A stretch of 64,000 bases of DNA from Ferrimicrobium sp. (lineage in GTDB: Bacteria > Actinomycetota > Acidimicrobiia > Acidimicrobiales > Acidimicrobiaceae): positions 124,001 through 188,000 of the forward strand of contig NZ_DAHXOI010000005.1 in the NCBI RefSeq assembly GCF_027364955.1, in the 5' to 3' direction. Each line of letters begins with the position of its first letter. Position 1 is the first letter of the stretch. The notes under the pieces were generated by a model. That model did no database searches. It saw only the letters and a program-made list of their open reading frames with translations, and was not told the DNA's origin. The position numbers and the translations under genes were made by a program. Shown piece after piece: positions 47,714 through 62,857 of this stretch.

Positions 47714-49030
47714 GTGAAAACAAATGAGCAGGTGGGGATCCGCACACGCGGTTATGAACGGCGTCGGCGTGAGCTCGAACTCGTCATCGTCGCTGACCTG
47801 ATCACCATCTTTGCATGGGTGCTGGGCTACTTCGGGCTCCACCCCAATGGGCATATCACCCTCGCCCAGCCCTGGCTCGCGATCGTCGTCTTGGCGCCCC
47901 TTGGTGCCCACGTCACCAATCGTTACTTCGCCTCCAACGCCGATACCATCCTTTTGCCCATCGCAGCGCTCCTTAACGGTCTTGGCTTTGTGATGATCGG
48001 GGTGCTCGATACCCAGGAGGCCCACCTGCAGGCTATCTGGACCTTGGTGTCCGTATTGGCCTATGTGGGTACCATCGTGTTGGTGCGCAACCCTGATTCG
48101 CTCGACCGCTACCGCTATCTACTCGCTATCGCGGGTATCGGCCTTCTGTTCAGCCCCCTTATTCCCGGGATTGGTGAAGACATCGGCGGAGAACGGCTTT
48201 GGGTTCACTTTGGTAGCCTCAGTTTCCAACCTGTCGAGATCGGCAAGCTCCTCCTGGCCATCTTCCTCTCTTCACTCATCGTTGAAAAGAAGGATCTCCT
48301 TGCTCGGCTTCGCGGGGGTGGTCTCCGACGTTTTGGCCCCATTGCACTCACCTTCGGCATTGCACTCGCGATCATGGCAGCGGAAAAAGATGTCGGCTTT
48401 GCGCTGCTCATTTTCGTCACCTTCGTACTGGTCATGTGGATCGGCACGGGCAACCGTACCTACCTCTTTTTTGGAGCCATCACCTTCGTTTTTGGACTCA
48501 TCGTGGGCGGTGCGCTCTTGCCGCAGGTGCACCAGCGGATCACGGTTTGGCTCGATCCCTGGAAATACGCCGCAACGACTGGTTATCAGCTGATTCAGGC
48601 TCAATACGCCTTCGGGATCGGCGGACTCAGCGGTACTGGTCTCGGGCTAAGCCACCCGACCGTACCAGTAGCCACCTCGGACTTCATTTTTGCCGCCTTT
48701 GGCCAGGAGCTCGGCCTTCTTGGCACCAGCGCGATCATCATCTCGTTCCTCCTTCTCACCGGTGCTGGAATCCGGATAGCGCTACGAGCAAACGGTGAGT
48801 TCAGCTCCCTGCTCGCCATGACCTTGACGGTGATTCTCGCCCTGCAGACCTTCTTCATCCTGGCTGGTGTCATTCGCGTACTACCGCTCACCGGTATGAC
48901 CCTTCCCTTCCTGGCCTATGGAGGATCATCGCTCTTGGCCAATTATGTCCTTCTTGGTGTGCTGATGCGGGTATCCCATCGCTCCAACCAACACGCCGAT
49001 CCACGAGAGGCGCAGCCGAACCACCCATGA
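47714..49030 (+). CDS. SEDS-family peptidoglycan polymerase (FtsW/RodA-like)
   Basis: 438 residues with about twelve helices. The family region GGERLWVHFGSLSFQPVEIGKLLL, the Asp in WLDPWKY and the C-terminal GMTLPFLAYGGSSLLANY are typical. The N-terminus is extended by two extra helices, as in the actinobacterial FtsW/RodA paralogue next to pknB. No penicillin-binding protein or kinase lies nearby here. A second SEDS gene, rodA, is at 58-59 kb. GTG start, leaderless by promoter position. Confidence 0.88.
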   Translation: MKTNEQVGIRTRGYERRRRELELVIVADLITIFAWVLGYFGLHPNGHITLAQPWLAIVVLAPLGAHVTNRYFASNADTILLPIAALLNGLGFVMIGVLDTQEAHLQAIWTLVSVLAYVGTIVLVRNPDSLDRYRYLLAIAGIGLLFSPLIPGIGEDIGGERLWVHFGSLSFQPVEIGKLLLAIFLSSLIVEKKDLLARLRGGGLRRFGPIALTFGIALAIMAAEKDVGFALLIFVTFVLVMWIGTGNRTYLFFGAITFVFGLIVGGALLPQVHQRITVWLDPWKYAATTGYQLIQAQYAFGIGGLSGTGLGLSHPTVPVATSDFIFAAFGQELGLLGTSAIIISFLLLTGAGIRIALRANGEFSSLLAMTLTVILALQTFFILAGVIRVLPLTGMTLPFLAYGGSSLLANYVLLGVLMRVSHRSNQHADPREAQPNHP

Positions 49031-57453: not shown

Positions 57454-57973
57454 GCGCAGGGGAATCAGACGACGGCGTAGGCTCTAGAGCGTTTCGCTCC
57501 TCTACCGGTGCAGCGCCGTCTGCGCCCTCTACCTCGGACCTCTCGGCAACAAGCGCGGGTGACACAAGGATGGGTGCTGGCACCGGTTGTAGGAGTGCCA
57601 ACATGATCGCATCAGATGGTCGAGCACTGAACAGGCGCGTACGCCCATCCTGGCTTGAGAGTGCCAAGATCGCATGTACATTGCCATCGATGACGGATTC
57701 AAGCGCTACGTAACTGACGCCCATCCCATATGAGGCCAGGATGTCCTGCATGAGTTCGGTCGTCATCGGTCTCGGTGCTCGTTCCTTGGCGACAATGAGG
57801 GAGAGCTGACGAGCCTGTTCGATCGAGATGGGGATCTCAAACTCCACGAGCGAGGTATCGTCCGGGAGCAGTGTGATACGCGCAAAAGGCTCCGGCAGGT
57901 CAACTCCCACCCGCACCATCCTGCAGGGCACGAAGCCGGCAAGGTTGAAGCTATCAGGATTTAGTACGGGCAC
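57416..57973 (-). CDS. Bifunctional nuclease family protein (DUF151), copy 2
   Basis: 185 residues. DUF151 pattern: LVEFEIPISIEQARQLSLIVAKE, RPMTTELMQDILASYGM and FSARPSDAIMLALLQP. It is divergent from copy 1 near 13 kb and carries an acidic, proline-rich tail of about 45 residues (from residue 140). It overlaps rodA upstream by 20 bp and nadC convergently by 38 bp. GTG start at 57973. Nuclease activity is a family property only. Confidence 0.83.
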   Translation of the reverse strand: MPVLNPDSFNLAGFVPCRMVRVGVDLPEPFARITLLPDDTSLVEFEIPISIEQARQLSLIVAKERAPRPMTTELMQDILASYGMGVSYVALESVIDGNVHAILALSSQDGRTRLFSARPSDAIMLALLQPVPAPILVSPALVAERSEVEGADGAAPVEERNALEPTPSSDSPAPTHPDNPDQDQE

Positions 57974-59099
57974 GCTGGGCCCCTACATTGAGTGCCAAAC
58001 CCACCATCGCGAGAAAGGCGAGCATCGCCGAACCGCCGTAGCTGATCAACGGCAAGGGGATGCCTGTAATGGGCATAATCCCTATGGTCATGCCCACGTT
58101 TTGGAAAACCGAATAGCCGATCCAGGCCAAGCCACCGGCCACGATCAACGTCCCCGTGATGTCCTTTGCCCAGCGCATTGCGCTCCACATTCGCCATATC
58201 AGTATCGCGTACCCTGCCAAGAGAGCGGCGCATCCAACGAAACCAAGTTGTTCTCCAATTGCGGTAAAGATAAAATCGGTCTGCTGTTCGGGCACAAAGG
58301 CCAGAGTGGTCTGTGACCCATTAAACAAGCCAACTCCAAAGATATGTCCGGAGCCAATGGCAATCTTGGATTGGGCGAGGTTATATCCGAAGGTCGATGC
58401 ATCTGCCTTCGGGTTGAGAAAGGATAACAAGCGGTGCAGCTGATAGCTCTTGAGGAAACCCACATGAAGGACTGCAACCACTCCAACGACACCCACCACC
58501 ACGAGTGCGAGCAGATAGCGTGCTGGGACACCCGCCATCACCAGCATCAGCGCCGTAATGATGCCGATGACGATCCCGGTGCCAAGATCAGGTTGCTTGA
58601 TCACCAACACCATTGGGATGCCTCCCATCAGGAGGATGGTGATCACCGCGCGGAGATCGATGGGATCATCTCGATTCGCGACGTAGGCGGCAACTCCGAA
58701 TATGACTCCGATCGGCGCGAACTCAGAGGGCTGTATCTGAATCGGACCGAGTTGGAACCATCGCTGCGATCCGAGTTGTGAGGTACCGATCGGCGATAGC
58801 ACAGCAAGCAGCCCGAGAAGGCTAGCGCCGTAGATGATGTAAGCCAGATGCGCGATCCGTTGGTAATCGACCAACGCGAGGACCACCATCACCACCGCAC
58901 CGAGGAGGAAGTAAATCGCCTGACGTTCGAAGTAGTAATGGCCCGAGATGCCCGCATGAACGAGTTGTTCCTTGGTAGCGGAGTAGATCATGATGACGCC
59001 AAAGGCTCCGATCCCTAACGCCACGATCGCCAACAACAGATCGATCCGGCTCAGTTCGCGCCAGAGACTCGTCTTGCGACGGACAGCCATCTGGGTCAT
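57954..59099 (-). CDS. rodA: Rod shape-determining protein RodA (SEDS glycosyltransferase)
   Basis: Peptidoglycan polymerase of the elongation machinery. About ten helices; GSQRWFQLGPIQIQPSEFA, VIKQPDLGTG, the long loop with FLNPKADASTFGYN and GVGLFNGSQ, EQQTDFIFTAIGEQLG, and GIPLPLISYGGSAML are RodA-specific. 381 residues. The 5' end overlaps the upstream hypothetical gene by 4 bp (ATGA). No mreBCD or pbp2 within the window. Confidence 0.93.
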   Translation of the reverse strand: MTQMAVRRKTSLWRELSRIDLLLAIVALGIGAFGVIMIYSATKEQLVHAGISGHYYFERQAIYFLLGAVVMVVLALVDYQRIAHLAYIIYGASLLGLLAVLSPIGTSQLGSQRWFQLGPIQIQPSEFAPIGVIFGVAAYVANRDDPIDLRAVITILLMGGIPMVLVIKQPDLGTGIVIGIITALMLVMAGVPARYLLALVVVGVVGVVAVLHVGFLKSYQLHRLLSFLNPKADASTFGYNLAQSKIAIGSGHIFGVGLFNGSQTTLAFVPEQQTDFIFTAIGEQLGFVGCAALLAGYAILIWRMWSAMRWAKDITGTLIVAGGLAWIGYSVFQNVGMTIGIMPITGIPLPLISYGGSAMLAFLAMVGLALNVGAQRARTKS

Positions 59100-59503
59100 G
59101 ACAGACCCAGCAGCCTTTCAAGGGCAGACCGGGCCATCACGCTCTGCCCTGCCTCAGCTTGAAACCGTACTAGCGCGGTGGCGATCCAGTCAGATAGTTT
59201 GAGTGTCTCAGTGCGGATTCGCACGCCGCCAACCACATGATCGACCCGACTCGATTGGACCTTGCCGTCCTTGTCACGTTCTATGATAAATCGTTCAGCA
59301 CCAACATCGAAGTAGTCGGTACGTTGCTTACGCTTCGTCTCAGTATGCAGCCGGTCCTTGAACAGCTCCAATACCCGCTCAAGACCCACCGTCTCTAACG
59401 CCTGTGCCTCCGCAGCCAGCTTGAACAAGTCTGAGGAATCCACCAGACCGTCAGCCGCATCGCCAAAGGCGTCACCTGATTCTTGACCATTCTCTGCTAC
59501 CAT
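59096..59503 (-). CDS. Hypothetical soluble protein coupled to rodA
   Basis: About 135 residues, rich in charged residues, without signal peptide or membrane segments. The middle part TDYFDVGAERFIIERDKDGKV looks like a beta-hairpin and the ends are helical. ATG at 59503 is chosen; the frame remains open for 12 more codons. Stop overlaps the rodA start (ATGA). I do not recognise the family. It is divergent from pspA with 59 bp between starts. Confidence 0.68.
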   Translation of the reverse strand: MVAENGQESGDAFGDAADGLVDSSDLFKLAAEAQALETVGLERVLELFKDRLHTETKRKQRTDYFDVGAERFIIERDKDGKVQSSRVDHVVGGVRIRTETLKLSDWIATALVRFQAEAGQSVMARSALERLLGLS

Positions 59504-59562
59504 GATAGGTAATAGAGTAATAGCTCTAGCCATCATCACTTTAGGGTTAAGGAGATCCTTTC

Positions 59563-60750
59563 ATGAGCATGTTCAAGCGCGTCTCTCAGGTCTTCCAACA
59601 GAAGTCAAATGCACTCCTTGACAAGGTTGAGGACCCAACGCAGGCCATCGACCTCAGCTACGAGAAGATGCAGGAGAATCTCCAGCAGGTTCGCAGGTCG
59701 ATCGCCGATGTTCTCACCTCGCAAAAACGCCTCGAGGCGCAACGAGCACAGCTGCAGGCCCAATACGACAAACTGCAGGGTCAGGCACGGCAGGCTCTTC
59801 AGCAAGGGCAGGAGGATGTCGCGAAGATGGCTCTCCAACGAGCCACCGCCATCCAGCCCCAGATCGACTCTCTCACCCCACAGATCAACCAACTCGCCCA
59901 GCAAGAGAGTGCGCTCGAGGAGACCGGTCGAACACTGAACTCCAAGATCGAGGCCTTTCGCGCGCAGCGTGACACCATGAAGGCCCAATACACCGCTGCC
60001 AAGGCATCCTCTTCGGCGCTTGAGAACCTCACCGGACTCTCAGATCAGATGACAGACGTCAACATGATGATGGATCGCGCCCAAGATAAGATCTCGCAGA
60101 TGCAGTCGCGGGCTGCAGCCGTCGGCGAGCTAGCGAACTCCGGCGTGCTCGACTCCCCGTCACTTGGCGGACATGGCGATGATATCGAAGCAGCTCTCGC
60201 TCAGAAGTCCTCTGCAAATGACGTAGATCTGCAACTTGCCGCAATGAAAGCAGAGCTCAACGGCCCAGCTCAGCCAGCGAGTCTTGGGGCACCGACGAAC
60301 ACGAGCGACACCAAGGAGCTCCATGCAGCGGACACAACTACCACCGACGCAGCAGCTAGCCCAGCACCGGTGGCCGGTGACTCCTTTGTGGTTCGGGTAC
60401 TCGGCCAGAACCGTTTCCGCATTCCGAACTCCATTCGACCAGCCCTCGATGGGCTCGACGCAGCGTTGGAGATGGCGGTTGACAAGAACGACGCTGAATC
60501 TTTTGCACAACTGGTCAAGCAGCTTGGGCTTCTCGTCTCAACCAACGGCACAGCCTTGGAGGAGACGGACACCACCAAGGCCGACATCGTCCTGCCAAGT
60601 CCAGATATGACTCTCGACGAAGCGAAGAAACTCTTCTTTGATGCACCAGCTACAATACAAGACGCAACGGCGCCAGACGCAACGGCGCCGACTACTACCG
60701 GCGCTGCCACTAATGGGGCGGGTACCACTGCCGAGGCAACGGAGAGCTGA
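59563..60750 (+). CDS. pspA: PspA/IM30 protein fused to a PspAA-like domain
   Basis: Residues 1-220 are a PspA coiled coil (FKRVSQVFQQKSNALLDKVEDP, YEKMQENLQQVRRSI), which binds stressed membranes. Residues 225-270 are an Ala/Thr-rich linker. Residues 271-360 (FVVRVLGQNRFRIP, ALDGLDAALEMAV, ADIVLPSPDMTLDEAKKLFF) match the PspAA domain, normally a separate small gene next to pspA. A low-complexity tail has a DATAP repeat. 395 residues. AAGGAG 8 nt before ATG 59563. Divergent from the rodA operon, so it likely reports envelope stress. Confidence 0.9.
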   Translation: MSMFKRVSQVFQQKSNALLDKVEDPTQAIDLSYEKMQENLQQVRRSIADVLTSQKRLEAQRAQLQAQYDKLQGQARQALQQGQEDVAKMALQRATAIQPQIDSLTPQINQLAQQESALEETGRTLNSKIEAFRAQRDTMKAQYTAAKASSSALENLTGLSDQMTDVNMMMDRAQDKISQMQSRAAAVGELANSGVLDSPSLGGHGDDIEAALAQKSSANDVDLQLAAMKAELNGPAQPASLGAPTNTSDTKELHAADTTTTDAAASPAPVAGDSFVVRVLGQNRFRIPNSIRPALDGLDAALEMAVDKNDAESFAQLVKQLGLLVSTNGTALEETDTTKADIVLPSPDMTLDEAKKLFFDAPATIQDATAPDATAPTTTGAATNGAGTTAEATES

Positions 60751-60779
60751 CCTCAGTCTTGTAGTCCGCGACTCGTCGA

Positions 60780-60800
60780 ACCGCGCCAGATTGGTGCGGT
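60780..60800. terminator. Hairpin between convergent pspA and uvrB
   Basis: ACCGCGCCA pairs with TGGTGCGGT (one G-U) around GAT. No T tract on either side; a plausible shared, weak terminator. Confidence 0.35.
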
Positions 60801-60849
60801 GATCTGCTGGTCGGGACGTACCTTAAGTGTGCACCGGCCTGTTCCGCCC

Positions 60850-60881
60850 TGTTCTCTATGAGTTCTGTTCTCTATGAGAGC
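60850..60881. repeat. 16-bp tandem duplication spanning the uvrB stop codon
   Basis: TGTTCTCTATGAGTTC and TGTTCTCTATGAGAGC, 14 of 16 identical. The second copy contains the uvrB stop (TAG on the minus strand). Confidence 0.85.
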
Positions 60882-62857
60882 AGTCGGCTGAGTTCTTTGA
60901 TGTCATCGCGCAGTTTTGCCGCCTCCTCAAAACGGAGCTCAGTGGCGCAGGCCTCCATCTCGACGCTCAACGCACTGATGACCTCCTGGAGCTGTTCAGG
61001 GGCCAGGTGAGCGTAGCGTTCGCCCACCTTTGACCGTCGCAGTTTGGGGACCCGTGAAGGGGAGTGTTCGTCACCCATAAGGTCTCCGAGGCGCGCTGTT
61101 ACTGTTGTTGGAGTAATCCCACGAATCTCGTTATAGTGCTCCTGGACTGCACGCCGTCGCGCGGTCTCGGAGATTGCATACTCCATTGATCGCGTCACCT
61201 TGTCCCCGTAGAGCAAGACGGTGCCATGACTATTACGCGCCGCACGCCCGATCGTCTGTACCAGCGAGGTCTCGGAGCGCAGAAACCCTTCCTTGTCAGC
61301 GTCGAGAATGGCCACCAGCGAGACCTCCGGGAGATCGAGACCCTCCCGCAACAGGTTGATGCCAACAAGCACATCAAACTCCCCAAGGCGAAGATCACGG
61401 ATCAGTTCAATGCGATCCAGCGTCTCAACATTCGAGTGCAGGTAACGTACGCGTACCCCAAGTCCCTCGAAATAATCCGTCAGGTCCTCGGCCATCTTCT
61501 TTGTCAGCGTCGTCACCAAGACGCGCTCGTTGACCTCAACCCTACGATGGATCTCTCTGAGGAGATCGTCAATCTGCCCTTTGGTAGGGCGCACCTCTAC
61601 AACGGGATCGAGCAGTCCTGTTGGTCGTACAATCTGCTCGACCACCGAAGACGACTGGGAGATCTCGTAAGGCGCAGGCGTCGCAGAAAGGAAGATGGCC
61701 TGGTTGATACGCTCATAGAACTCGTCAAAACGTAGTGGACGATTGTCCATCGCCGATGGTAGGCGGAAGCCGTGTTCCACAAGGGTCTCCTTGCGGGAAC
61801 GGTCACCGGCGTATTGGCCACGGAGCTGGGGCACGGTAACATGACTCTCATCGATGATAAGCAGATAGTCCTGGGGGAAATAATCTAACAGCGTGTAGGG
61901 AGGCTGCCCAGCTTTGCGACCGTCGAGATGACGAGAATAGTTCTCGATTCCCGAACAGAATCCGACCTCACCGAGCATCTCCAGATCGAACTCAGTTCGC
62001 ATCTTGAGACGCTGTGCCTCAAGGAGTTTGCCCTGGTGGTCAAAGTATCCAAGCTGGTCACGGAGTTCATCCTCAATGCCATTCATGGCGACTTTTAGGC
62101 GTTCTGGGCTCGCGAGGTAATGAGTAGCGGGAAAAATGACGAACTCGTCCAGATCTTTGACCAGTTCGCCTGTCAGAAGATCTACCTTTGAGATCCTCTC
62201 AATCTCGTCGCCAAAGAACTCGATTCTCATGGCGAACTCCTCGTACGCTGGATGAACCTCGACGGTATCCCCACGCAATCGAAACTTGCCTCGCGAAACC
62301 TCCACATCATTACGCTCATACTGCATCGCCACCAGCGATCGCGCAATCGTTTGCAGGGAGATACTCTTGCCACACTGGAGCGGAAGAATCTGGCCCTGGT
62401 ACTCCTCCGGCGACCCCAGGCCGTAGATACATGAGACCGATGCGACGACGACGACGTCCCTTCTTGTCAGCAGAGCCGACGTGGCGGCGTGGCGCAGGCG
62501 ATCGATCTCATCGTTAATCGACGAATCTTTCTCGATGTAGGTATCGGTCGTTGGGAGATACGCCTCCGGTTGGTAGTAGTCGTAGTACGAGACGAAGTAC
62601 TCCACCCGATTATGCGGGAAGAAGCCACGAAATTCGTTGGCGAGCTGTGCCGCCAGCGACTTGTTAGGCGCGATGATCAACGTTGGACGCTGTACTGCTT
62701 CAATGGTCCATGCGATGGTCGCACTCTTACCCGAACCGGTAATACCTAGGAGGGTCTGGAACCGCTCGCCACGCTTGATTCCCTTCGCAAGCTCTGCAAT
62801 AGCCTTCGGTTGATCCCCAGCCGGTTCATAGTTTGAGACCACCTGAAATTCTGGCAC
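60872..62857 (-). CDS. uvrB: Excinuclease ABC subunit B
   Basis: Damage-verifying helicase-like subunit of nucleotide excision repair. Walker A is [10 protein letters not shown], the beta-hairpin region [21 protein letters not shown] is intact, motif II is [10 protein letters not shown], motif [11 protein letters not shown], and the C-terminal UVR motif is [22 protein letters not shown]. 661 residues, normal. Single gene, minus strand. Confidence 0.97.

Follow-up and report, generated by a model that had tools for sequence, protein, structure and literature searches.

The window analysed here is a stretch of 64,000 nucleotides from Ferrimicrobium sp. It carries a gene in which the membrane-maintenance protein PspA and its partner PspAA form a single polypeptide.

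59550 to 59554, forward strand: Shine-Dalgarno sequence AGGAG, 8 nt 5' of the ATG of the fusion gene and kept across the genus.
59563 to 60750, forward strand: pspA-pspAA fusion gene, a single open reading frame of 395 amino acids plus stop, with an ATG start, no interruption and a frame common to relatives.
59569 to 60255, forward strand: PspA_IM30 domain, residues 3-231, from alpha0 to alpha5, recognized by Pfam match and predicted helices.
60262 to 60381, forward strand: Ala/Thr/Pro-rich linker, residues 234-273, about 40 amino acids, predicted to be without secondary structure, fast-changing and gapped within the genus.
60388 to 60645, forward strand: PspAA domain, residues 276-361, with the element order E-E-H-H-E-E-H, recognized by Pfam match and AlphaFold2 models.
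60646 to 60747, forward strand: low-complexity C-terminal tail, residues 362-395, with pLDDT about 50; in the alignment its length varies, and it is missing from several relatives.

Both domains score over their Pfam cut-offs. PspA_IM30 (PF04012) matches residues 3-231 with 97.6 bits (E 1e-27; cut-off 33.9 bits), and PspAA (PF22743) matches residues 276-361 with 74 bits (E 1.2e-20; cut-off 27 bits). The C-terminal domain is also matched, at E 1.7e-17, by an HMM built from stand-alone PspAA proteins only. Between the domains, residues 233-274 include 10 Ala, 7 Thr and 5 Pro among 42. An earlier note on this DNA had described PspA and PspAA as one chain joined by an Ala/Thr-rich linker, and had proposed an HMM search for PspAA C-terminal to the linker and a search for a free pspAA gene. 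The description holds, and both searches agree with it.

In a genome-wide profile search of the bacterium's own genome (3.08 Mb in 84 contigs, 97.55% complete), there is exactly one PspA match and one PspAA match, both inside the fusion reading frame. At that completeness, neither a free pspAA elsewhere nor a second PspA is found. A scan of positions 59000-60900 found no promoter site and two terminator-like sites, both of which lie within the fusion gene and are at chance level.

In unfused relatives the pspA and pspAA genes overlap in different frames, and a single indel could merge them. A fused frame could therefore be a frameshift or assembly artefact that joined two overlapping genes, which is what the earlier note had named as fatal to its reading. 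However, a common frame for PspA and PspAA was verified in 28 family genomes, the bacterium's own included, and in four genomes (L089, L091, L092 and L093) that belong to two other families in the order. One of the 28 (L008/L111) is a closed single-contig chromosome of 2,158,157 bp. A linker of about 40 amino acids separates the two domains, and both domains show a coding-type pattern of substitution. The continuous frame in many independent assemblies, together with mostly synonymous changes in both domains, rules out the artefact, whose probability is close to nil.

Among the other genomes of the family, 35 were searched and 33 of them have a PspAA match; the two without one are just 71% and 76% complete. 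It lies within a long open frame in all family genomes with a match except one, where it is near a contig end. By this comparison of sequences, the fusion is the normal form in the family of the window bacterium.

The pattern of substitutions can be seen by comparing the gene with that of a same-genus genome, L020. The PspA domain differs by 116 synonymous codon changes and 1 non-synonymous change, and the PspAA domain by 47 and 12, in both cases with zero gaps. The linker differs by 12 synonymous and 23 non-synonymous changes, with gaps. Third codon positions take most of the substitutions within the genus, and a near relative of the protein, also from Ferrimicrobium sp., is 88% identical. 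Since within-genus codon changes in the two domains are mostly synonymous, both are, judged from their codons, under purifying selection as coding sequence.

PspAA is present in 44 of 396 sampled genomes of the phylum and in 49 of 248 genomes of the order. Outside the fused clade, pspA and pspAA are separate adjacent genes at every examined locus that is not cut by a contig end. These unfused pairs mostly overlap by 4 bp, with the stop codon of pspA and the start codon of pspAA both inside ATGA, GTGA or TTGA. A locus labelled as a Methanothrix MAG (L072) had appeared as an archaeal fusion in a tblastn table; it was rejected, being two adjacent genes.

In a midpoint-rooted maximum-likelihood tree of 96 PspA+PspAA rows, for which the bootstrap was not fully settled, a single branch (100/100; 1 change; 100% of bootstrap trees) separates the 32 fused rows from all the others. 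The sampling of the fused clade covers one phylum, and the fusions named in Chloroflexi (PMC11237479) are outside it. The simplest history would be that a stop was lost or the frame changed at the overlapping junction, once in the lineage, and that the linker then grew.

The stem of the fused clade is long, at 1.16 changes per column. Fused PspA has a mean identity of 49% to the dyads of its order, compared with 70% for the dyads among themselves. For PspAA the corresponding values are 31% and 43%. Twelve residues of PspA are specific to the fused clade, among them A13Q and K17A, both in alpha0, the membrane helix. Because of the long branch and these clade-specific residues, K17A included, some functional change in the PspA half of the fused clade is possible. 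Viewed within the order, the PspA of the fused clade (L001-L029) is strikingly divergent from unfused PspA.

The structure of the protein was predicted with AlphaFold2 from a 111-row alignment. In the PspA half, helices are predicted at residues 3-21, 25-80, 84-156, 163-192 and 207-233. As modelled, this half follows the canonical alpha0-alpha5 plan of PspA/Vipp1, and it matches solved Vipp1/PspA chains at E 7e-22. Residues 245-268 have pLDDT <50, and the linker between PspA and PspAA is probably disordered in the model. In the full-chain model the PspAA domain has pLDDT values of 87-97 by block; its own model (mean pLDDT 82.9) has strands at 4-9 and 14-18, helices at 19-37 and 41-58, strands at 60-62 and 72-74, and a helix at 81-89. 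The predicted domain thus has three helices and four strands, matching the published definition (PMC11237479). The full-chain model has a pTM of 0.48, so it is not read as showing PspAA packed in a fixed position on PspA. Against the PDB, PspAA has no significant match by sequence, and its fold has no Foldseek match at E <= 0.001. The best VIA-align result, Z 5.2 over 48 residues, is inside the noise range that the tool warns of, so no fold relative of PspAA is asserted.

The reading that we favor, and hold to be fairly likely, is that of an ordinary PspA/IM30 protein, a bacterial ESCRT-III-like protein of membrane maintenance, in which the PspAA partner domain is permanently carried on a flexible tether. 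PspA would polymerize on the inner membrane under stress, its alpha0 inserted in the bilayer and its helical hairpins packed side by side. Insertion of alpha0 into the membrane inside PspA rods has been described (PMC12358876), and in Vipp1 alpha5 of subunit j contacts the hairpin tip of subunit j+3 (PMC8281802). Because PspAA is tethered after alpha5 in the same chain, each subunit of the polymer would bear one PspAA, hanging on its tether of about 40 residues and decorating the polymer. The PspA:PspAA ratio would be set at 1:1 by the fusion. PspAA may then serve the polymer as a docking or regulatory module that is part of the chain, whereas elsewhere it is a separate protein. Counting against an ordinary PspA are the long PspA branch, K17A in alpha0 and a genome without PspC; no match to PF04024 is found in the 97.55% complete genome.

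The earlier note had suggested that PspAA could cap the PspA polymer. Such a domain would block the addition of subunits at filament ends or restrict filament length, and a bulky C-terminal domain might in principle impede packing, although nothing in the present data speaks for a cap. However, every subunit of the genome's only PspA bears PspAA, so that blocked addition would leave no polymer at all, and the domain sits behind a flexible linker after alpha5. Capping is very unlikely, since a cap would have to bind sub-stoichiometrically and specifically at the ends, and joining PspAA to the genome's sole PspA cannot by itself bring this about. By this reasoning, a domain fixed at 1:1 should decorate the whole polymer instead.

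Alternately, the fusion could be a precursor, from which cleavage of the linker or initiation at an internal start yields free PspAA and thus two proteins in the cell. The linker is of low complexity and exposed, and in some relatives the codon where PspAA ancestrally started is still ATG. In this genus, however, TTT or TTC stands at that position, and across the clade no conserved Shine-Dalgarno sequence precedes it. An internal start was rejected for these two reasons, and the precursor explanation as a whole is quite unlikely. The tethered, uncleaved chain remains the preferred reading, and the fusion favors the idea that PspA and PspAA act together as a unit. For structural studies of PspAA, a domain for which no significant PDB match was found, it also offers a construct with the 1:1 ratio already built in.

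The fusion gene has a conserved neighbor, rodA, which is placed head-to-head with it.

57954 to 59099, reverse strand: rodA, with TIGR02210 above its cut-off, kept as the head-to-head neighbor of the fusion gene in the fused clade.
59096 to 59539, reverse strand: open reading frame of 147 amino acids between rodA and the fusion gene.
48023 to 48988, forward strand: FtsW/RodA/SpoVE-family gene, about 9 kb from rodA.

Every tested fused locus of the family with enough flank, including those of other genera and that of the closed 2,158,157-bp chromosome, has rodA head-to-head, as do two genomes of a further family. In one more family (L117), rodA lies about 3.4 kb from the fused gene. The contig ends at one fused locus (L118), which is outside this count. 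By comparison, a head-to-head rodA is found at 0 of 15 dyad loci (L121-L135), read with 8-14 kb of DNA. The intervening 147-residue frame is 86-96% identical in the genus and 43% identical in one other genus (L065), and has no match in Pfam or NCBIfam. The genome has three FtsW/RodA/SpoVE-family genes in all, and in several relatives a second gene of this family is near the same BFN-rodA-pspA block.

The rodA neighborhood points towards cell-wall elongation as a lead, not as evidence. One explanation would be that in this clade the fusion, with rodA beside it, is specialized in guarding the membrane for the synthesis of lateral cell wall. We consider this unlikely; if true, the fusion and its placement beside rodA would indicate that the role had moved from general envelope stress to cell elongation.

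PspA-PspAA fusions in Actinobacteria were published by Ravi et al. (2024, mSystems), with ACU53894.1 as an example, and those in Chloroflexi are named in the same paper (PMC11237479). Its main text does not name the rodA context of the fusion (PMC11237479). The fusion and the partnership are thus both already known, and the fusion is ordinary, because it has been in the literature since 2024 and is what the family normally carries. The ACU53894 series is presumably that of Acidimicrobium ferrooxidans, CP001631. What is added here, and the limit of the gain beyond the 2024 paper, is a single fused clade in the sampled phylum and its conserved neighbor rodA. In the earlier note PspAA was known as a separate small protein, which is true but incomplete, as the fused form had been published. 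The note had also taken the fusion as support for a physical partnership; the fusion and the conserved gene pairs do fit a working partnership, but this too was in print (PMC11237479).

Compared with PspA/Vipp1 (IM30, PF04012), the protein has the same predicted alpha0-alpha5 layout and matches solved chains significantly. It differs by its additional C-terminal PspAA and by the lack of a PspC match in its genome, and because of the latter it is classed as a PspA protein and not as part of a classical pspABC system. It shares with the fusion of Ravi et al. (PMC11237479) an N-terminal PspA followed directly by PspAA, an origin in Actinobacteria and the same predicted PspAA topology, with no differences of substance. 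The pspA-pspAA dyad of other Actinobacteria and Archaea likewise has PspA followed by PspAA, encoded by adjacent genes. The dyad, however, consists of two proteins from genes that mostly overlap by 4 bp, whereas the window encodes one chain with a long linker.
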